From the IMG/VR virus record IMGVR_UViG_3300027881_000073, positions 1 through 24,266 of that record: 24,266 nucleotides of DNA. One strand, given 5' to 3'. The notes under the pieces were generated by a model. It searched no databases. It was not told the DNA's origin and saw only the letters and a program-made list of their open reading frames with translations. The first letter of the stretch is position 1, and every line of letters begins with the position of its first letter. The DNA is from a virus. Positions 806-10,942 of this stretch are shown here, one piece after another. The position numbers and the translations under genes were made by a program.

Positions 806-1032
806 GTACTGGTGATGTAGTAGTCACAGACATCGGGCTTGCCAATGAGCTGACGATGGACAGTCTGGTACGTACGGTAATAGCCCAGATGTTTGAGAAC
901 GACAACGACGTAGCTACCCTTGAGGTAGTGCTGAATGGTACTGATGCCAAGGAACCACCCAAGCTGGAGCTTGAGTTGCGCCTCGTTAGTATCAATGGAC
1001 AACCGACAAGGAGAGACGAAGATGCCAGCTAG
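802..1032 (+). CDS. Hypothetical protein, 76 aa
   Basis: ATG 802 overlaps the preceding stop (ATGA) and is preceded by GGAGAAG. The product is acidic, begins with a beta-rich stretch and an amphipathic helix (about residues 12-35), and ends in a strand-rich segment with alternating Leu and Glu. No signal peptide, membrane span or catalytic motif is visible. Its 3' end overlaps the start of the AAA+ ATPase gene by 11 bases, so it is part of the same transcription unit. I do not recognise the family and assign no function. Confidence 0.65.
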   Translation: MSTGDVVVTDIGLANELTMDSLVRTVIAQMFENDNDVATLEVVLNGTDAKEPPKLELELRLVSINGQPTRRDEDAS

Positions 1033-2155
1033 TGGTAGTAAGGCACCCAAAGGAGCCTCACTGAAGGGGCTGTATGATTCGGACATCATTGACTCCATCG
1101 TCCAACATAAGAAGGATGAGATAGAGGCAGTGAAGGAGGACCCCTATGTAATAGACAAGGGGTACCAATTCAATAAGACAGAGGGTACTGTCATGTTCAG
1201 TGAGGTGTTCTGGAAACCTAAGGACATACCTGACATACCACTGCCCATGTTTAAGGCAGAGGACTGGCATGAAGAAGCACAGCTACATATACCAGACAAG
1301 GACCCCAACTGGGTATGGAATAAGGGAGTCACTGAACGCGTGGCTCTGGCGTTATACTGCGGAGACACCACCCTACTGCATGGACTACAAGGCACTGGTA
1401 AATCGTGTCTTGCTGAGCAGTGGTGTGCTACATTTATCATTCCGTTCTGGAGGATGTCATGTAACGTCGAGACAAGAGAGGCACACTTCTTAGGTAGTGC
1501 GTCCATTGATTACGAGGAGATAAATGGTGAAGCCAAGATGTTCATTAAGCAAGAGCCAACGATCCTCACTGACAGTCTCAAGTACGGCGGCATGTTCTGC
1601 GAGGACGAGGCATTTAGGCACAACTCAGCACTCGTCTTGCAGTCACTGCGTGAGAAAAATACACGGACAGTACTGCTTCCTGATGCTCCGGGCCGTACCG
1701 CAGATGAGCGTAGACTCGTTGCTCCTGAAGGTAGATGGTGGTACATACTCACTGATAACACATGTGGAACTGGCGACGAAACGGGTGTCTTTGACGCTCA
1801 AGTACAAGACGCGTCCACACTGGACCGCATCGGTGCTTGTATCGAAGTACGGTACTTGGGCAAGAGCGATGAGAAAGATATTATGGGCAGGCACACGGAT
1901 CTTAGCGACTCACAGATCTCAGGTATCATCGACTTCGCCAAGCTAGTACGTAAGGCGTTCGAGCAACAGACCCTACTGTGTACCTTCAGTGTCCGGTCAC
2001 TGCTAGCATGGGGTGAGAAGGCAATGATGACACAGGACATGGAGCTAGCACTGCGTCTTACGTGGTACGAGAAGCTGTGTACTGATGACAAGGCTACAGC
2101 TAGGGACATGTACCATCAGGTATTCGCTCGCCAATTGGTGAAGGCTAGTGGCTAA
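1022..2155 (+). CDS. MoxR/CobS-type AAA+ ATPase
   Basis: The 377-residue product carries the full AAA+ set: Walker A GLQGTGKS (residues 121-128), Walker B ending in D195-E196, a sensor 1 Asn at about 246 and a candidate arginine finger at R269. The layout is that of the MoxR/CobS branch, ring ATPases that usually remodel targets together with a VWA-domain partner. Such a partner is encoded by the next gene, which overlaps this one by 8 bases. ATG 1022 was preferred to ATG 935 because AAGGAGAG lies upstream and the longer form would overprint the previous gene. Phage members are often labelled cobaltochelatase CobS, but nothing here points to cobalamin synthesis. The role in infection is unknown; chaperone-like remodelling is inference. 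Confidence 0.88.
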   Translation: MPASGSKAPKGASLKGLYDSDIIDSIVQHKKDEIEAVKEDPYVIDKGYQFNKTEGTVMFSEVFWKPKDIPDIPLPMFKAEDWHEEAQLHIPDKDPNWVWNKGVTERVALALYCGDTTLLHGLQGTGKSCLAEQWCATFIIPFWRMSCNVETREAHFLGSASIDYEEINGEAKMFIKQEPTILTDSLKYGGMFCEDEAFRHNSALVLQSLREKNTRTVLLPDAPGRTADERRLVAPEGRWWYILTDNTCGTGDETGVFDAQVQDASTLDRIGACIEVRYLGKSDEKDIMGRHTDLSDSQISGIIDFAKLVRKAFEQQTLLCTFSVRSLLAWGEKAMMTQDMELALRLTWYEKLCTDDKATARDMYHQVFARQLVKASG

Positions 2156-3980
2156 GAAGACAACGATCCTTGAGTTAGATCGCATCCAATCGGTACTGAA
2201 CCGTAGGTGTGAGTCAATGAACGTCAACTTAACGTGGTCCAAGCAAGCTAAGACAGCCATGACCAATGGCAAGGAGATAATCATACCATCACCCAAGCAC
2301 CCTGTTACTGTGGATGCTATGGATAAGCTGTATGGATTCGTGATCCATGAGTGTGGGCACCACAGTAGGCCGGATGCTTTCAAGATCCTAGCTGCACTGA
2401 AGGACCCACCTCAAGAACTGTGTGCCTTGTTCAACATATGTGAAGACGATGGTATGGAGCGTGAGGTAGCCAACTCATACATAGGTGATGCCGTAGGCTT
2501 AGGCAAAGCCAACTCGGTCATACTAGGTGAGCTAGTAGAGGAGTGGAAGACAGTTGAGTACCCACCCAATGTAACAGAGCAGCAGGTAGCACCCATCTCA
2601 GTGTGTGGACTAGCACAACTGTCTCGATTAGAGTGGGATGCGGTGTCTAATGCCAGCCGCAATGCTTTCTTCGCTAGTATGCACCCTACTGCACAGAAGC
2701 TGATCAATGCACTGCACCAAGAGGGCTACGTTGATAAGCTACTGGCTACCGAGGATGAGCATGACACATGGGACCTAGCTGTTGACCTATACAAGCGGCT
2801 ATTCCCAGAGAGGGATCAAGATGAAGCAGAACAGCACCGTAAGGACGGACATTCTATGGAACCGGCACCACCCGATGAATCTAATGAATCTGAGTCCAAT
2901 GCTGGATCAGATACAGCTGATAAGCAGGACGGGGATGTCGGAGAAAGTGACCTTCAAGACGGGGAGGACGATGATTCTGAGGCTACTAAGCAGGAAGGTA
3001 CCGTCGTCAGTTGGAAGGATGCGGTCCTCAGTGAGCATAACGAATGGAAACCCAAGGAGGATGGTGAAATAGCAGGCAACGTAGGCATAGACTGGACTGA
3101 CTACACACAGGGTGAGGTAGCACTCATGCCACAGAACATGGTCAATGTCATTGACTGTCGTAGCCGTGACCTAGATGTGGAGCATAGCGATTCATGTGCT
3201 ACACCGGAGGCTTTCTTGCCTGACAACACAGGTTCCCGCGCCTTTGGCAATCAGATCAGACGTTACCTCCAAGCACAGCGGCGTACTAGGGTACGACGAG
3301 AGAGATACCACGGTAGACTGGACAAGTCCAGCATCACAAGGCTAGCTATGCCACCCATTGATGGTGGTGAGTGGAACAAGAAATTGTTTTACGACATGAC
3401 ACAGCGCAAGGAACTGAACACTGCTGTCCATGTACTGACTGACTGGTCAGGCTCAATGCAAGGGACCAAGATGGTACATGCTGCTGATGCTAGTGGTAGG
3501 CTAGTGCATGTGTTCGACAGGGTGCTACGTGTGCCAGTACAACTGGCTGCGTTCACCAATGGTAGGACACGGTGTGACATTGGTCTCATCAAGGCGTTCA
3601 ATGACAGGAGCATAAGCCCACGTATGATAGCCGAGAACTTCTCCAAGTTCTACAAGTTCAGCTCAGCTAACAACGACGCTGACTCATTGATGTGGGCATA
3701 CAACCAACTGATGAAGCGAGATGAAGAACGTAAGATCCTGATGGTACTCAGTGATGGGTGTCCAGCAGGTGCATGGGCTGGCTCAAGTAGCTCGAACCTT
3801 CGGCATGTGTGCAATCAGATAGAGAAGGAAGGTAAGGTAGAGCTGTATGGTGTGGGCATATGCTCGGATGCAGTTGCCGACTACTACAGCAACTACAAGA
3901 TACTTAACGACAGCAGTGAGATCAACAACACACTGTTCGACATCATTAAAGCAGGAGCATACCGCAATGAAAGACGATAA
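2148..3980 (+). CDS. Predicted metallopeptidase-VWA protein (CobT/DUF2201-like), partner of the AAA+ ATPase
   Basis: Translation begins at GTG 2148, overlapping the ATPase gene by 8 bases. The 610-residue product has an N-terminal domain with an HECGH zinc-peptidase motif (H67, E68, H71) and, about 28 residues later, an acidic NICEDD stretch that could supply a further ligand. An acidic low-complexity linker follows (about 223-285). A C-terminal VWA domain carries the metal-ion-dependent adhesion site D432-x-S434-x-S436 and a later Asp at 536. This order matches the DUF2201 arrangement of a putative metallopeptidase domain followed by a VWA-like domain, and CobT-like proteins. VWA proteins of this kind act as substrate adaptors for MoxR-type ATPases. 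The target is unknown, and peptidase activity is predicted from the motif only. Confidence 0.85.
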   Translation: MAKKTTILELDRIQSVLNRRCESMNVNLTWSKQAKTAMTNGKEIIIPSPKHPVTVDAMDKLYGFVIHECGHHSRPDAFKILAALKDPPQELCALFNICEDDGMEREVANSYIGDAVGLGKANSVILGELVEEWKTVEYPPNVTEQQVAPISVCGLAQLSRLEWDAVSNASRNAFFASMHPTAQKLINALHQEGYVDKLLATEDEHDTWDLAVDLYKRLFPERDQDEAEQHRKDGHSMEPAPPDESNESESNAGSDTADKQDGDVGESDLQDGEDDDSEATKQEGTVVSWKDAVLSEHNEWKPKEDGEIAGNVGIDWTDYTQGEVALMPQNMVNVIDCRSRDLDVEHSDSCATPEAFLPDNTGSRAFGNQIRRYLQAQRRTRVRRERYHGRLDKSSITRLAMPPIDGGEWNKKLFYDMTQRKELNTAVHVLTDWSGSMQGTKMVHAADASGRLVHVFDRVLRVPVQLAAFTNGRTRCDIGLIKAFNDRSISPRMIAENFSKFYKFSSANNDADSLMWAYNQLMKRDEERKILMVLSDGCPAGAWAGSSSSNLRHVCNQIEKEGKVELYGVGICSDAVADYYSNYKILNDSSEINNTLFDIIKAGAYRNERR

Positions 3981-4399: not shown

Positions 4400-4675
4400 A
4401 TGAAGAAAAAAGATTACAAAGTACCAATGCAAGACCTAGGAATTAAGACGCTACCTACACCGGATGAAGTGTTTGATTGGTTCCATAAACAGGGAAGGTA
4501 CCTGAAGACTGAAAGGAACGACGACTATGATGGCAGTGCAGAAGGTAGCTTAGCCATTACGAAGAACACATCAGTCGAGTATGCTATACCTGAACATGAA
4601 CCCATTGAACATGGGCCAGTGAAAGAGTACACTCCGGAGGAGATAGCTGAGTACGAGGAGAGCAGGAATGATTGA
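4400..4675 (+). CDS. Hypothetical acidic protein, 91 aa
   Basis: ATG 4400 follows a GGAGAGG site. The product starts basic, has a short helical region containing Trp and Phe near residues 24-30, and finishes in a long acidic, Pro- and Glu-rich tail that looks disordered. There is no membrane span or known motif. It overlaps the primase gene by 8 bases and heads the replication block, so it may be an accessory factor, but I do not recognise it. Confidence 0.65.
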   Translation: MKKKDYKVPMQDLGIKTLPTPDEVFDWFHKQGRYLKTERNDDYDGSAEGSLAITKNTSVEYAIPEHEPIEHGPVKEYTPEEIAEYEESRND

Positions 4676-5546
4676 CATGCGAGATTGGGAGACTGAGTGT
4701 GGTATGGTTAAACGTGGTCAGACACTGCGCTTCAATCACACTGACTGTCCTGCTGGACAGGACAACAGACGTAGGCTGTACCTCACTCGCCCTGCTAGCT
4801 CAGCTGGCATGGTGGTAGCGTACTGTCACAACTGTCAAGACAAGGGTGTAGTAAGTGATGACTCTAATCTGTTCAGAGACTTTGATAAGTGCGTCCCTTC
4901 CACACATGACAAGCGTGTAGCATTTGCTGAACCAACAGCACTGATCACTGATCCACATACGTGGCCTAGTGAGGCTACCATCTGGCGTATGCAGAAGGGG
5001 CTGTCACCCAAGCAATGCAAGGCAGCAGACATAGCGTATGACCCTGATACACACAGGGTGTACTTGCCTATGTATGACAAGGTGGATGCCAATGGCGCAC
5101 CGTTCATAGAGACAGAGCTACAAGGCTTTCAACTACGTAGACTGAGTGGAACCGGACCCAAGTACCTCAACGCATACAAGGACAACGAGGTCAAGCCTTA
5201 CACTAGGTTCGAACCTGATTGGAAATCAATGGTCCTCTTAGTAGAGGACTTTGCTAGTGCCATGATGTTGAGCTTCACCCTTGCAGACGAGAGCATTGGG
5301 GTAGTGTGTAACTATGGTGTGAAGTGTACACCTGAGGTACTGTATGCCAACAGAGACTTTGGAGTGGGAGTGGTGTGGTTGGACAACGACAGTGAGCATG
5401 TGGTTGACCAAGCACACATGATTGCAAAGACGTGGCAGTTAATCAGTGGCAACTCATGCTATGTAGAGGACAGACAAGATGATCCGAAGGATTGCACAAG
5501 TGACGAGATCTATGAAGTCTACTGCAACTGGAGGGTACCGGAATGA
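4668..5546 (+). CDS. DNA primase, zinc-binding and TOPRIM domains
   Basis: The 292-residue protein begins with a zinc-binding module: H24-x2-C27 and C53-x2-C56, with the CPAGQDNRR stretch typical of phage primases. The TOPRIM-like half shows the conserved Glu (E193 in VEDFASAM) and the D239-x-D241 pair in WLDNDS. It would make RNA primers for lagging-strand synthesis. Here primase and helicase are separate genes rather than a T7 gp4-like fusion. ATG 4668 has a GAGGAG site upstream and overlaps the previous gene. The helicase gene starts 4 bases before this one ends, suggesting coupled expression and a shared complex. Confidence 0.82.
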   Translation: MIDMRDWETECGMVKRGQTLRFNHTDCPAGQDNRRRLYLTRPASSAGMVVAYCHNCQDKGVVSDDSNLFRDFDKCVPSTHDKRVAFAEPTALITDPHTWPSEATIWRMQKGLSPKQCKAADIAYDPDTHRVYLPMYDKVDANGAPFIETELQGFQLRRLSGTGPKYLNAYKDNEVKPYTRFEPDWKSMVLLVEDFASAMMLSFTLADESIGVVCNYGVKCTPEVLYANRDFGVGVVWLDNDSEHVVDQAHMIAKTWQLISGNSCYVEDRQDDPKDCTSDEIYEVYCNWRVPE

Positions 5547-6823
5547 TGGAAGGAATCGACCTTGATCTACTGAAGTACATGTCGAACAGAGACAACTACT
5601 TCACCTACAGGGATGTGATACACAAGGGTCTGTGTACTAGGGAATCATGGACATTGATCGGAGACTACGGCAAGTACTTCAATGAGTATCCTACACAACA
5701 GGAGATAGACAGTGACTTCGAACTGTGGTTCAGGGTTACCGGGCACCCCGGATGGAAACCGGACGAACACAAAATCTACAGCACGATTATTGGTAACGTC
5801 GCAACGAGATCAGTGCCCTGCGGTAACGTCTTTCACGATCAACTGGAGCGCCTTCGATTTGAAGCAGTACTCAAAGAGTCATCAGACAATTTTAAGAAAG
5901 GTACTTCCGACGTTAGTGATGTGCTATCCCAGCTCACTCAAGCTGGGGCATCTAGCCCAACGCAGGGGGATAAGATCTATACCTTCGATCTCAACGATCT
6001 TGCTCAGAATCAACGATCAGATGACGGTCTCTACTGGAGGCTTGAGGACCTCAACAAGAGCATCGGGCCGATCAGGAAGGGTGACTTCTGCGTCGTGGGT
6101 AAGCGACCCGAAATAGGAGGCACCTCCTTCATATGCTCAGAGATGAGCTTCATGTTGGAACAACTACCTAAGGGTGGCAGAGTAGCACTGTTCAACAACG
6201 AGGAGGCTCCGGACAAGGTAGCCACTCGTATGGTAGGTGCTGCACTAGGTACTGACTACCGTACTATGATGTCAGCTGAGAAGCTGTACCAACAGAAGTA
6301 TGAGAAGTGGTTAGACACACACGAATGGGACTTGATACATGACACATCAATGGACATCAGTAGCATCCACACCGCACTACGTGCTAGAGAATACGACCTC
6401 ATCGGGATCAATGTCCTCCTTAAAGTGGGAGGGACAGGTGCTAAAGAGGACCATGATAAGTTCCAAGCTCTCGGTGAGGAGATGCGTCGTATCGCACAGG
6501 AGTATGGGCCTGTGCTGGCAGTTGTACAGGCTGACCCGTCTGCTGAAGGTATGCAGTACATACCGCAAGATAGAATTTACAAATCTAAGACTGCTCTCCA
6601 AGGTGAGGCAGACATCCAGATCATGATAGGGTACGACGACAACGGACCAGTGGATAGTAGGTATATCCATGTGGCAAAGAACAAGATACCACCTGCACCA
6701 TGCTGTGACCTCTCGGTGAAGCACATCAAGAGTGAGGTCGGGTTCGACCTAGGCACAGGTAGGTTCTCGTCGAGGAACTACCGAGGCAATAGCAGGGGAG
6801 GCAAAATGAAATGTACGACCTAG
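5543..6823 (+). CDS. DnaB-like replicative helicase with altered Walker A and B motifs
   Basis: The 426-residue product has a helical N-terminal domain (about 1-125), a linker and a RecA-like core. The core is recognisable from GPIRKGDF, the NNEE stretch with the catalytic Glu at 220/221, VVQAD with a conserved Gln at 329, SKTALQGEADIQIMIG, and AKNK near the C-terminus. The P-loop reads GKRPEIGGTS (186-195), where relatives have GxRPExGKT. The Walker lysine is replaced by Gly193, and a Lys appears instead at 187. Walker B ends in N290 where Asp is expected. Its place between primase and polymerase fits a replicative helicase, but ATP use may be changed or lost. It could instead be a helicase-derived structural or loading factor. 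Confidence 0.8.
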   Translation: MMEGIDLDLLKYMSNRDNYFTYRDVIHKGLCTRESWTLIGDYGKYFNEYPTQQEIDSDFELWFRVTGHPGWKPDEHKIYSTIIGNVATRSVPCGNVFHDQLERLRFEAVLKESSDNFKKGTSDVSDVLSQLTQAGASSPTQGDKIYTFDLNDLAQNQRSDDGLYWRLEDLNKSIGPIRKGDFCVVGKRPEIGGTSFICSEMSFMLEQLPKGGRVALFNNEEAPDKVATRMVGAALGTDYRTMMSAEKLYQQKYEKWLDTHEWDLIHDTSMDISSIHTALRAREYDLIGINVLLKVGGTGAKEDHDKFQALGEEMRRIAQEYGPVLAVVQADPSAEGMQYIPQDRIYKSKTALQGEADIQIMIGYDDNGPVDSRYIHVAKNKIPPAPCCDLSVKHIKSEVGFDLGTGRFSSRNYRGNSRGGKMKCTT

Positions 6824-8709
6824 TACTAGACCTAGAGACCACCGCTAACGGTGGCGTAGGCAAGGATAATCCGGAGGCACACTACCCTAACAACAGGGTA
6901 CTGCTGTATGGTTGGATAGGACATGCTGGCATTAAGAGCAGCAGCAAGAGTGACGATCTATTTGAACTTATTGAGAATGTACCCAAGCAAGGTGAGATAC
7001 TCCGCATCATTGGACACAACCTCAAGTTCGACCTCAAGTACCTGATTAAGGAACGTCCGGACTTACCGTGGCATCAGTTCGAGTACTACTGCACCATGTA
7101 CGGTGAGTACAGGCAGAGTGGACACAGGTTCAGGTTCTCCTCACTGGTGGACTCATGTACGAGACACAACATCAAGTTCTCGAAGGGACTGGACCTCGGT
7201 GCTATACTGGCTAGTGGTCTGAAGATGGAAGACATCCCACGCACTGACCTTGAGCCTTACTTGAGGGACGACGTAGGTGCTACCTTCCAACTGTTCCAAG
7301 CACAGCTAGCACACACTGGCTATGATGAGTACATGCACCAGCATGTGCTGCCCCTAGCACACATGGAACTGATCGGACTGAGGGTGGACGTACCGAAGAC
7401 AGCACTACAGATGGGCCAACTGGTAGCTACGGAGAGTTTGCTTAACAAAGAGCTATTCAAGTGGGCCTTCGATAGCTTGCAATGGGACGACGGTACCCCA
7501 CTGGGTGTCAACGACATCAAGTTCACAGCACCACGGTGCGTGTCTTACCTGCTCACTGGTGAGCCAGCAGCAGGGTTCGTCAAGGGTAAGAAGTCAGTGC
7601 AGTTCAAGCCCGGTAAGAATCGTATGCTTGGACCCAAGGCGGTAGCTAAGCTATGGCCCAATGCCAAGGTGACTAACCTTGGATACCCAATGGCTAAGGG
7701 TGTGCTGAATGACATGCCTACTGGTAGCAGGGCAGAAAAATATGTAGAAAAATTATTGGAGTATCGTGCAGCAATAAAACTGTCAAGCACGTACTTCGGC
7801 CCCTTCTTAGAGGAGGCTACACTGGACTATGCCCACCCATATGTACATCCGAAGATGAACATGTGTCAGACAGTGACAGGTAGGCTGAGTAGTAGCAAGC
7901 CCAATGGACAGAACATGCCACCTGAGGCGCGAGAGGTATTCATATCAGAGAATGGTTTGATGATGGAGATTGACTTCAGACAACTGGAGGTGGTGGCACT
8001 CGCTCACTTGAGCAAGGACCCGCAGCTACTGGCTGACATACAGGCAGGAGAGGACATCCACTTCAATACAGGTAAGCATGTCATGGGCTGGAAGGTATCA
8101 GCAGACATGACGAAGCAACAGCGCACGATAGTGAAGAACGTGAACTTCGGACTGATCTATGGGGGTGGTGCGAAGGGACTAGCCGCTAGTACTGGGCAAC
8201 CAGTGAAGCTGATCAAGCAACTGATCAAGGCGTTCTATGATCGCTACCCCGGTGTGTCAGTGTGGCAACGACAGTACTACACTGACATGGTAGGCTTGAT
8301 GAAGCCCTCTCACCTAGAGAACGGCGAGCAAGTGTACTCCTCACTGACACGTGACGGTGTGAGTGGACGCAAGTTCTACTTCACAGAGGGTAGGTCACCT
8401 CAGTGGATACGAGCTAAGACAGGACGAGGCTTCTCATTCAAGCCTACTGAAACAAAGAATTACCCAGTGCAAGGATTTGCAGGTGGGGACATAGTAATGA
8501 CAGCACTGTGGGAGTTGTACTTCCGCATTGCTGGATTGGATCGTACACAGATACGGATGACTGTGCATGATAGCATACTGGTAGACACAGACATGGATCA
8601 ACAACAAGTAGTAGTGATGATGCAAGATGTCTGCGCCGATATTGAACAGCTGTTCGGTCTACCTTTCAAACTGGACTTCGATATACAGTCGGGTCTTTAC
8701 TGGCAGTAA
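6811..8709 (+). CDS. Family A DNA polymerase with 3'-5' exonuclease
   Basis: The 632-residue enzyme has an N-terminal proofreading domain with Exo I DLE (D7, E9), Exo II HNLKFD (D74) and Exo III Y150-x3-D154. The polymerase domain has TGRLSSS (about 356-362), motif A DFRQLE (388-393), the O-helix R438-x3-K442-x3-F446-x3-Y450-G, and motif C HDS (586-588). All catalytic residues are in place. The E. coli position 762 equivalent is Phe (F446). A 5'-3' exonuclease domain is absent, as is usual for phage T7-type enzymes. ATG 6811 has a strong GGGGAGG site and overlaps the helicase gene by 13 bases. This is the replicative polymerase of the phage. Confidence 0.96.
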   Translation: MYDLVLDLETTANGGVGKDNPEAHYPNNRVLLYGWIGHAGIKSSSKSDDLFELIENVPKQGEILRIIGHNLKFDLKYLIKERPDLPWHQFEYYCTMYGEYRQSGHRFRFSSLVDSCTRHNIKFSKGLDLGAILASGLKMEDIPRTDLEPYLRDDVGATFQLFQAQLAHTGYDEYMHQHVLPLAHMELIGLRVDVPKTALQMGQLVATESLLNKELFKWAFDSLQWDDGTPLGVNDIKFTAPRCVSYLLTGEPAAGFVKGKKSVQFKPGKNRMLGPKAVAKLWPNAKVTNLGYPMAKGVLNDMPTGSRAEKYVEKLLEYRAAIKLSSTYFGPFLEEATLDYAHPYVHPKMNMCQTVTGRLSSSKPNGQNMPPEAREVFISENGLMMEIDFRQLEVVALAHLSKDPQLLADIQAGEDIHFNTGKHVMGWKVSADMTKQQRTIVKNVNFGLIYGGGAKGLAASTGQPVKLIKQLIKAFYDRYPGVSVWQRQYYTDMVGLMKPSHLENGEQVYSSLTRDGVSGRKFYFTEGRSPQWIRAKTGRGFSFKPTETKNYPVQGFAGGDIVMTALWELYFRIAGLDRTQIRMTVHDSILVDTDMDQQQVVVMMQDVCADIEQLFGLPFKLDFDIQSGLYWQ

Positions 8710-9230: not shown

Positions 9231-10130
9231 ATGAAGCCCATAGCTAATCTCACTGACGACATCTATGCCGTACTCGACAGTACGCAAGACCACGAACCTA
9301 GCCCAGACCTAGCAGCAGAGTATGCAATGCGCATAGGTGGGGAGTTTGCAAAGGCTACCCTGAAGCGAGATAAGCCACGAGAGAAGGGCAAGCTGTGGGC
9401 TTCAGACTTAGGTAAGCCCTGCATGAGGCAACATTGGTACAAGTTCAACATGCCTCAAGCAGGTGCTGGCCTTACTGGTAACACCAAGTTCAAGTTCCTC
9501 TACGGTAACATACTAGAGGAGGCCGTGTTGTACATGGCAGAGGAGGCAGGACATGATGTACAAGAGGCCCAGACAAGGGTCGAAGGTGACGTGGAGCGTC
9601 CCAATGGACCCGACTGGGTGGTCTCAGGACGCATTGACTGCATCCTTGATGGTCACCTCGTCGATGTCAAGTCCACCAGTAGTTTCGGATACCAACGCTA
9701 CAAGGATGGTATCCATGCTGGCAATGACTCGTTCGGTTACCTCTGGCAACTCGGGTTCTACTCTAAGTTCGGAGACTTTAAGCATGCTCCGCGTAATAAG
9801 GGATTCGTTTGGATCGACAAGCAGAACGGACACATCAAGTATACGCCATGTTCTACTCCAGACAGAGAGGAGATTCTGCAACGGGCAAGGGACATTGCTG
9901 ATGCTGTGGAGTCAGAGTCCGAACTTGGCATCAGTAGGCATTATGGTCCCGAACCATATGGGAAGTCAGGGAACCTCATACTACCAACAGCCTGCTCTTA
10001 CTGCGACTTTAAGAAAGAGTGTTGGAAAGACAGTAACGGTTCACAAGGACTGCGTACGTTTGCCTACAACCATAAGCCGATTCACTTTGTCAAAGTGATA
10101 CGGGAACCTAAAGTACCGGAGATCAAGTGA
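9231..10130 (+). CDS. Cas4/RecB-type PD-(D/E)XK exonuclease with predicted iron-sulfur cluster
   Basis: The 299-residue protein shows the nuclease core: a conserved Glu in GNILEE (about 96), D136 in SGRIDCILDG, D145-V-K147 and QLGFY with Q173. Four cysteines are placed as in Cas4 and AddB proteins: C64 before the core, and C255-x2-C258-x5-C264 near the C-terminus. These would hold a 4Fe-4S cluster. It probably resects DNA ends during replication, recombination or host DNA breakdown. It lies 3 bases after the previous gene with GAGGGGAAG as its ribosome site. No CRISPR array is present in the window, so a spacer-acquisition role has no local support. Confidence 0.82.
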   Translation: MKPIANLTDDIYAVLDSTQDHEPSPDLAAEYAMRIGGEFAKATLKRDKPREKGKLWASDLGKPCMRQHWYKFNMPQAGAGLTGNTKFKFLYGNILEEAVLYMAEEAGHDVQEAQTRVEGDVERPNGPDWVVSGRIDCILDGHLVDVKSTSSFGYQRYKDGIHAGNDSFGYLWQLGFYSKFGDFKHAPRNKGFVWIDKQNGHIKYTPCSTPDREEILQRARDIADAVESESELGISRHYGPEPYGKSGNLILPTACSYCDFKKECWKDSNGSQGLRTFAYNHKPIHFVKVIREPKVPEIK

Positions 10131-10131
10131 G

Positions 10132-10512
10132 ATGTTAGATGGAAAACAATTCAGAGATGAGAATGAGGAAGCGCAGTACCGCAAGGAGCGCCCTATTGCG
10201 AGAGGATGCTTGGACTACTTTCCAGAGGCGCTGCTGGAAGTGGCGCATTGCTCATTCATTGGCAATCAACAGCACCACGACGACGCACCTCTCCATTGGG
10301 ATAAGGCCAAGAGTACAGATGAAGCAGACGCTCTCGTCCGTCACCTTATGGACCGGGGTGAACGGGATACCGATGGCGTTCGACACTCAGCCAAGGTAGC
10401 ATGGAGAGCACTGGCTATGCTGCAACGTGAGATAGAGGCAGAGCAAGGCAGAGAGAGGTTGAACAAACTAATGCACACGGCACCGCCGTGGGAGGAAGAA
10501 GGTGAAGCGTAA
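10132..10512 (+). CDS. dATP/dGTP diphosphohydrolase-like protein (DUF5664 type)
   Basis: The 126-residue helical protein carries the hallmarks I associate with the phage family named dATP/dGTP diphosphohydrolase N-terminal domain (formerly DUF5664). These are ARGCLDYFPEALLEVA at about 23-38, an HWDKAKST segment near 55, RHLMDRG at 70-76, and D-x-DGVRHSAKVAW at 79-91. Acidic residues E32, E36, D79 and D81 could bind metal as in MazG-type all-alpha pyrophosphatases. It would hydrolyse purine deoxynucleotides and shape the nucleotide pool. Relatives called MazZ serve 2-aminoadenine genomes, but no PurZ is visible here and the family is common without it. The final tail is acidic and overlaps the next gene. 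Confidence 0.75.
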   Translation: MLDGKQFRDENEEAQYRKERPIARGCLDYFPEALLEVAHCSFIGNQQHHDDAPLHWDKAKSTDEADALVRHLMDRGERDTDGVRHSAKVAWRALAMLQREIEAEQGRERLNKLMHTAPPWEEEGEA

Positions 10513-10942
10513 TGTACGAGCATCGGCGCGTCGTAGCAAATTCGAAGATAGAGTGGCTGACTATCTTACAAGCAAGGGAATGTCGTTTACATATGAGACG
10601 TACTCCTATGAGTACGACGAGCCACTACGAAAGAATCTCGCCCGATGTGGTGACTGCGGTAGTACAACCCTACTTCGAACTGGGTGGTACACACCGGATT
10701 TTTTCTTGGCGAACGGCGTTATCATTGAAAGTAAGGGGCGTTTTACCGCATCAGACCGACGGAAAATGGTTGCCGTGCAAGAAAGCCACCCTGATCTTAA
10801 CATCAAAATGTTGTTCATGAGGGACAACAAGATACACAAGAACAGTACGACACTGTACTCGGACTGGTGTATGCAAAACAATTACGAGTTCGCAATAGGC
10901 GAGCCCTTAGCGGAGTGGTTACATGAAAAAGAGTTGGACTAA
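10502..10942 (+). CDS. T7 endonuclease I-like Holliday-junction resolvase
   Basis: A GTG start at 10502 with GGAGG six bases before it gives 146 residues. The PD-(D/E)XK site matches T7 endonuclease I in spacing: an N-terminal Glu (E15), D66 in YTPDF, then E76-S-K78, with ten residues between Asp and Glu and one between Glu and Lys. A basic helix, RFTASDRRKM, follows as in the family. It should resolve branched DNA before packaging and may help break down host DNA. One unusual point is a CGDCG pair at about 49-53 in a longer stretch between E15 and D66. It overlaps both neighbours slightly. Confidence 0.88.
   Translation: MKRNVRASARRSKFEDRVADYLTSKGMSFTYETYSYEYDEPLRKNLARCGDCGSTTLLRTGWYTPDFFLANGVIIESKGRFTASDRRKMVAVQESHPDLNIKMLFMRDNKIHKNSTTLYSDWCMQNNYEFAIGEPLAEWLHEKELD

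Follow-up and report, generated by a model that had tools for sequence, protein, structure and literature searches.

The DnaB-like helicases of the Vibrio phage ICP2 (Zobellviridae) and of related podoviruses are the closest described counterparts of a helicase encoded in the IMG/VR virus record IMGVR_UViG_3300027881_000073, whose 24,266 analysed nucleotides are referred to here as the window. In the DnaB family, the Walker A motif follows the pattern ARP[GS]xGK[TS], with alanine at position 1 (PMC8421360). The ICP2-type enzymes are full-length homologues of the window helicase (about 26% identity) with the same fold, and both carry a KNK finger and the sequence NNEE; however, the ICP2-type proteins read ARPNAGKT and VIDQ, with the canonical lysine and the Walker B aspartate. 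No published DnaB-family helicase without the Walker A lysine was found in the open-access literature.

ParA/MinD proteins (KGGxxGKT) resemble the window helicase in carrying an additional lysine near the start of the P-loop, but this signature lysine stands at position 2, the canonical lysine is retained and the fold class is different. Phage large terminases differ in being packaging ATPases of another ASCE family, and those with a deviant Walker A motif have, as far as we are aware, a normal Walker B aspartate. Mu gp28 has L70 at the canonical position, and K64 was proposed as the replacement (Mitchell and Rao 2004, as cited in PMC7363723); the spacing of six residues equals that between K187 and G193 of the window helicase and provides an exact positional precedent. 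In HK97 TerL, an extra upstream lysine, K57 (canonical K60), is essential and was modelled touching the gamma phosphate. Lambda gpA lacks a lysine where one is expected and has one on the N-terminal side of that site (PMC9410871). The STAND-like NTPases of the SAMD9 family share GGT/S in place of GKT/S with the window helicase; they differ in their unrelated function and in that a conserved upstream histidine, not a lysine, was proposed as the substitute (PMC5445408).

Helicase Identity and ATP Site

The open reading frame is uninterrupted over its 426 codons, as the original prediction had stated. Its product matches Pfam DnaB_C at 1.2e-8, over the family cut-off, and PHROG 19 'DnaB-like replicative helicase' at 2.1e-26, while a phmmer search returned a weak match to solved DnaBs (1.2e-4); homology to the RecA-like core of DnaB-like (SF4) replicative helicases is thereby present. 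An AlphaFold2 model built on a 23-sequence clade alignment reached a mean pLDDT of 83.5, with block means of 88–96 over the P-loop and Walker B. In Foldseek, this model has the DnaB fold and matches the E. coli and V. cholerae DnaB at an E-value of 1.9e-19 and a full-length TM of about 0.5, a value that probably reflects domain orientation; among the viral models of BFVD, the ICP2 helicase is the top match.

The window protein is a DnaB-like helicase by homology and fold, yet it lies outside the Walker A and Walker B signatures of the family. Its P-loop reads V-G-K187-R-P-E-I-G192-G193-T194-S where canonical relatives read ARPExGKT, so that KRPEIGGT departs from the family pattern, and the Walker B aspartate is replaced by Asn290. 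Numbered along the DnaB motif ([AG]RPxxGK[ST]), Lys187 corresponds to position 1 and Gly193 to position 7. The phmmer alignment with solved DnaBs pairs Gly193 with the Walker A lysine, Asn290 with the Walker B aspartate and Glu220 with the catalytic glutamate after strand 2; in H. pylori DnaB, the partner of Glu220 is the glutamate of FSLEM. Both predicted losses are confirmed by this alignment and by the 32 distinct helicases of the clade, the window protein included. The modelled P-loop is of canonical form, with a strand (182–187), a loop (188–192) and a helix (193–205), and its mean pLDDT is about 90 or higher. The H3 glutamine (Gln329) and the basic finger (K379-N-K381) are present as in GKT relatives. 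The rest of the core had been described as well kept, and Glu220, Gln329 and KNK are indeed conserved, although KNK is ordinary, occurring also in relatives with a normal GKT and aspartate. The features are collected in Table 1.

Table 1. Helicase, ATP-site residues and neighbouring replication genes in the window
Feature	Position	Strand	Evidence or conservation
Split TOPRIM primase, 4-base overlap with helicase start	4668..5546	+	PHROG 47 DNA primase, 3.6e-19; syntenic in K/G/N and A/K/N phages
DnaB-like replicative helicase with shifted Walker A lysine and Walker B Asn	5543..6823	+	426 aa; Pfam, PHROG, AlphaFold2/Foldseek
Walker A region, residues 186-196, G-K-R-P-E-I-G-G-T-S-F	6098..6130	+	KRPExGGT in 32/32 clade members
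Lys187 at Walker A position 1, putative substitute for the ATP-phosphate lysine	6101..6103 (AAG)	+	32/32 clade; Ala/Gly/Ser in 90/90 others
Gly193, canonical Walker A lysine position (7)	6119..6121 (GGC)	+	32/32 clade; Lys in 90/90 others
Glu220 (FNNEE), expected catalytic glutamate	6200..6202	+	Invariant, 122/122 aligned sequences
Walker B strand, residues 286-291 (LIGINV)	6398..6415	+	Asn290 = AAT, 6410-6412; Asn in 41/41 N clade, Asp in 81/81 others
Gln329, motif H3	6527..6529	+	Invariant, 41/41 of the N clade
Lys381 of KNK, expected trans-acting finger region	6683..6685	+	Invariant across all aligned sequences
Family A DNA polymerase	6811..8709	+	Pfam DNA_pol_A, 1.1e-53; syntenic
Cas4-like exonuclease, same replication module	9231..10130	+	PHROG 1990, 6.3e-33
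Endonuclease I (Holliday junction resolvase type)	10502..10942	+	Pfam Phage_endo_I, 2e-31

Recurrence in Relatives

A first scan of viral contigs returned ten more unbroken homologous open reading frames (55–81% identity), all ten with a KRPE-V/I-GGTSF P-loop and IN in Walker B. The set was then enlarged by a KRPExGGT pattern scan and two profile scans to 122 aligned helicases, with duplicates removed and the window included. By the residues at position 1, position 7 and the Walker B site, these fall into 32 K1/G7/N, nine A1/K7/N and 81 x1/K7/D sequences (K/G/N, A/K/N and D-type, respectively). The combinations K1/K7, G7 without K1, and K1 with D are absent from the 122. The 32 K/G/N helicases are distinct, come from separate contigs and all carry K187, G193 and N290, so the paired GG and IN changes, whose recurrence in a clade had been proposed as a check, do recur. 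All 90 relatives outside this clade have lysine at position 7, and none has it at position 1.

Within the K/G/N set, the lowest pairwise core identity is 35%, with KRPExGGT unchanged. Thr194, Glu220, Gln329 and Lys381 are invariant throughout, and the codons for K, G, N and T each occur in several synonymous forms, which indicates that selection preserves the amino acids. Errors of sequencing or assembly, or gene decay confined to one contig, were considered as an alternative, and one near copy does carry a frameshift: in L010 (4971–6250), a helicase whose start is nearly identical to that of L003 is split into two open reading frames (195 and 304 aa), probably by a sequencing or assembly indel. 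The probability of error or decay is nonetheless negligible and the explanation is refuted by the relatives, given that the motif is common to 32 distinct homologues and that the synonymous variation reflects purifying selection.

Of 426 columns, only 187 and 193 hold residues that are fixed in the K/G/N clade and seldom or never occur elsewhere; as the sole separating columns, they indicate that the lysine swapped position. The terminase-type deviant Walker A pattern (lysine at position 1, none at 7) is accordingly present in all 32, as a likeness of motif only, and Pfam and PHROG returned no terminase family match that would indicate homology of the window helicase to the terminase ATPase-nuclease. 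The analogy with ParA/MinD was rejected on register, position 2 of the window protein being Arg188 and position 7 Gly193.

A scan for KRPExGKT, with both lysines, matched seven viral contigs, none of them with a helicase homologue. The pattern method found no prophage copies of the clade helicase in 84,980 prokaryote genomes. Among the cultured phages of INPHARED no clade member was seen, the best full-length match having 30% identity; the best matches there to the P-loop peptide reached about 60% identity and were canonical-type helicases wherever the sequence was read. A single-sequence search with L084 returned L084 alone.

Order of the Two Changes

The nine A/K/N helicases (L071, L074, L077, L085, L096, L115, L142, L143 and L156) come from uncultured viruses and share the Walker B asparagine and the operon order with the K/G/N clade, from which they differ by an ordinary ARPExGKT. 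In a maximum-likelihood tree of 87 helicases, calculated with the three trait columns removed, the K/G/N set groups as a single clade (99/93) that lies within the A/K/N helicases, a paraphyletic grade beside it; the two sets together form one clade (92/98) inside the D-type relatives. Under parsimony, the Walker B residue and the lysine each changed once, as they do in 922 and 986 of 1000 bootstrap trees, respectively. Tree and parsimony thus place the change from aspartate to asparagine earlier and the lysine shift later, solely in the asparagine background. As reconstructed from these sequences, the order is a single Asp-to-Asn change followed by a single shift of the lysine from position 7 to position 1 as a linked swap. 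The nine helicases with asparagine and an ordinary GKT are surviving intermediates. Two A/K/N sequences sit on long branches with uncertain placement; the order needs only that the asparagine helicases form one clade. The long-branch A/K/N helicases L142 and L156 also depart from NNEE (NPEE and SNEE, respectively), and L142 has a six-residue insert following Walker B.

The original prediction had spoken of two independent key changes. The tree instead shows the Walker B change coming first and once, and the lysine swap later as one linked event. Since the K/G/N clade arose once, the pairing of K and G is one event inherited by descent and not repeated covariation. The wider asparagine clade is marked by Asn290 and by Pro383 (window 6689–6691; KNK-x-P), the sole other nearly fixed residue, which lies two residues past the KNK finger, is present in 40 of the 41 members and does not occur in D-type relatives. 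Pro383 and the Walker B change may be coupled.

Gene Context and the Search for Another Helicase

The gene order primase–helicase–PolA–Cas4–EndoI is common to K/G/N and A/K/N phages. Upstream of the primase, positions 935–3980 of the window encode a CobS-like AAA+ ATPase and, after it, a CobT-like VWA protein. Most K/G/N phages and several A/K/N phages have this pair in synteny, and it may form a module of the MoxR-VWA type and not serve cobalamin synthesis. Scans for tRNAs and repeats across the window gave nothing relevant.

Loss of both residues had led to the proposal that, failing a new way of using ATP, another helicase must exist in the genome. The gene content speaks against it. Each of twelve related records has one DnaB_C match, and a PHROGs scan of 30 of the larger proteins of a 49.5-kb sister record (L003/G002), which encodes a terminase, head-tail adaptor, major head and tail genes, found no second helicase. 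The only other strict GK[ST] P-loops among the proteins of the window and of three close sisters belong to the CobS-like AAA+ ATPase and, in the window, to a motif of the Cas4-like protein that is probably there by chance. As the related records are not certified complete, the absence of a second helicase is strong, not absolute. In another sister phage, the large terminase (L226, 9624–11165) reads PRDHQKST in its P-loop region, without glycine before the lysine, and has another non-standard Walker A.

These observations bear on whether the protein is a helicase-derived ring that binds nucleotide without hydrolysis, leaving DNA unwinding to a host or other helicase. Both textbook residues are absent, and Walker B changes usually abolish ATPase activity. 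Changes of the Walker A lysine usually do so as well, and for SAMD9 proteins, which have GGT/S in the P-loop, it was suggested that they may only bind nucleotide (PMC5445408). We nevertheless consider such a ring unlikely. The catalytic glutamate, the glutamine and the KNK finger are invariant in the clade, as is the new lysine at position 1, and this conservation argues against a ring that no longer hydrolyses ATP. In addition, the gene occupies the operon slot of the A/K/N relatives, which keep GKT, and no other phage helicase was found in the records described above.

Proposed Mechanism

From the conservation pattern, the protein is probably a working, ATP-driven helicase, the sole replicative helicase of a group of podovirus-like phages, with Lys187 taking over from the Walker A lysine. 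The phosphate-contacting lysine would have been relocated from position 7, now Gly193, to position 1 at the end of strand beta-1, from where the side chain of Lys187 would reach the beta and gamma phosphates. Thr194 and Asn290, the latter in place of the Walker B aspartate, would hold the metal, and hydrolysis would proceed via Glu220, Gln329 and the KNK finger contributed by the adjacent subunit, presumably driving DNA unwinding by NTP hydrolysis. The invariance of Thr194, Glu220, Gln329 and Lys381 argues that hydrolysis is retained. Lys187 as a stand-in, already suggested in the original prediction, is the best-supported reading; the parallel it drew with ParA/MinD does not hold, the lysine being at position 1 instead of 2 and those proteins keeping the canonical one.

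Alternatively, the protein could be an active ATPase in which Lys187 is structural and the charge comes from backbone amides and a residue of the neighbouring subunit, such as the KNK lysines or Arg188, both conserved throughout. At high ATP, fungal Kti12 remains catalytically active when its lysine is changed to leucine (K14L), although no other lysine takes its place (PMC7363723). GKT relatives conserve Arg188 and KNK to the same degree, so neither is a new feature, whereas Lys187 alone appears alongside the loss of the canonical lysine; we regard this alternative as very unlikely.

Replacement of the lysine by Lys187 would have been reached in two steps, with the Walker B aspartate first changing to asparagine while GKT was retained, and the lysine then being swapped on the asparagine background. 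Losing the Walker B aspartate normally harms ATPases. Asn290 may grip the metal shell more weakly and may have made the canonical lysine replaceable. Whether the asparagine altered metal or nucleotide handling, made the canonical lysine dispensable and so let a position-1 lysine replace it, giving nucleotide or metal use or coupling unlike that of every DnaB studied, is a more tentative matter, to which we would give slightly less than an even chance.

Implications

The Walker A lysine and the Walker B aspartate are the residues by which P-loop motors are annotated and, by mutation, killed. That a lineage has lost both while its protein is the sole helicase found in the phages suggests that a hexameric replication motor can trade these residues and that not even its most conserved ATPase motif is beyond rebuilding. 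It also cautions against labelling GGT P-loops as dead. With living intermediates of the D/K7, N/K7 and N/K1 types, the evolvability of the P-loop becomes testable, and, if the reading of a rebuilt site is true, the surviving intermediates would let the pathway be replayed in the laboratory.
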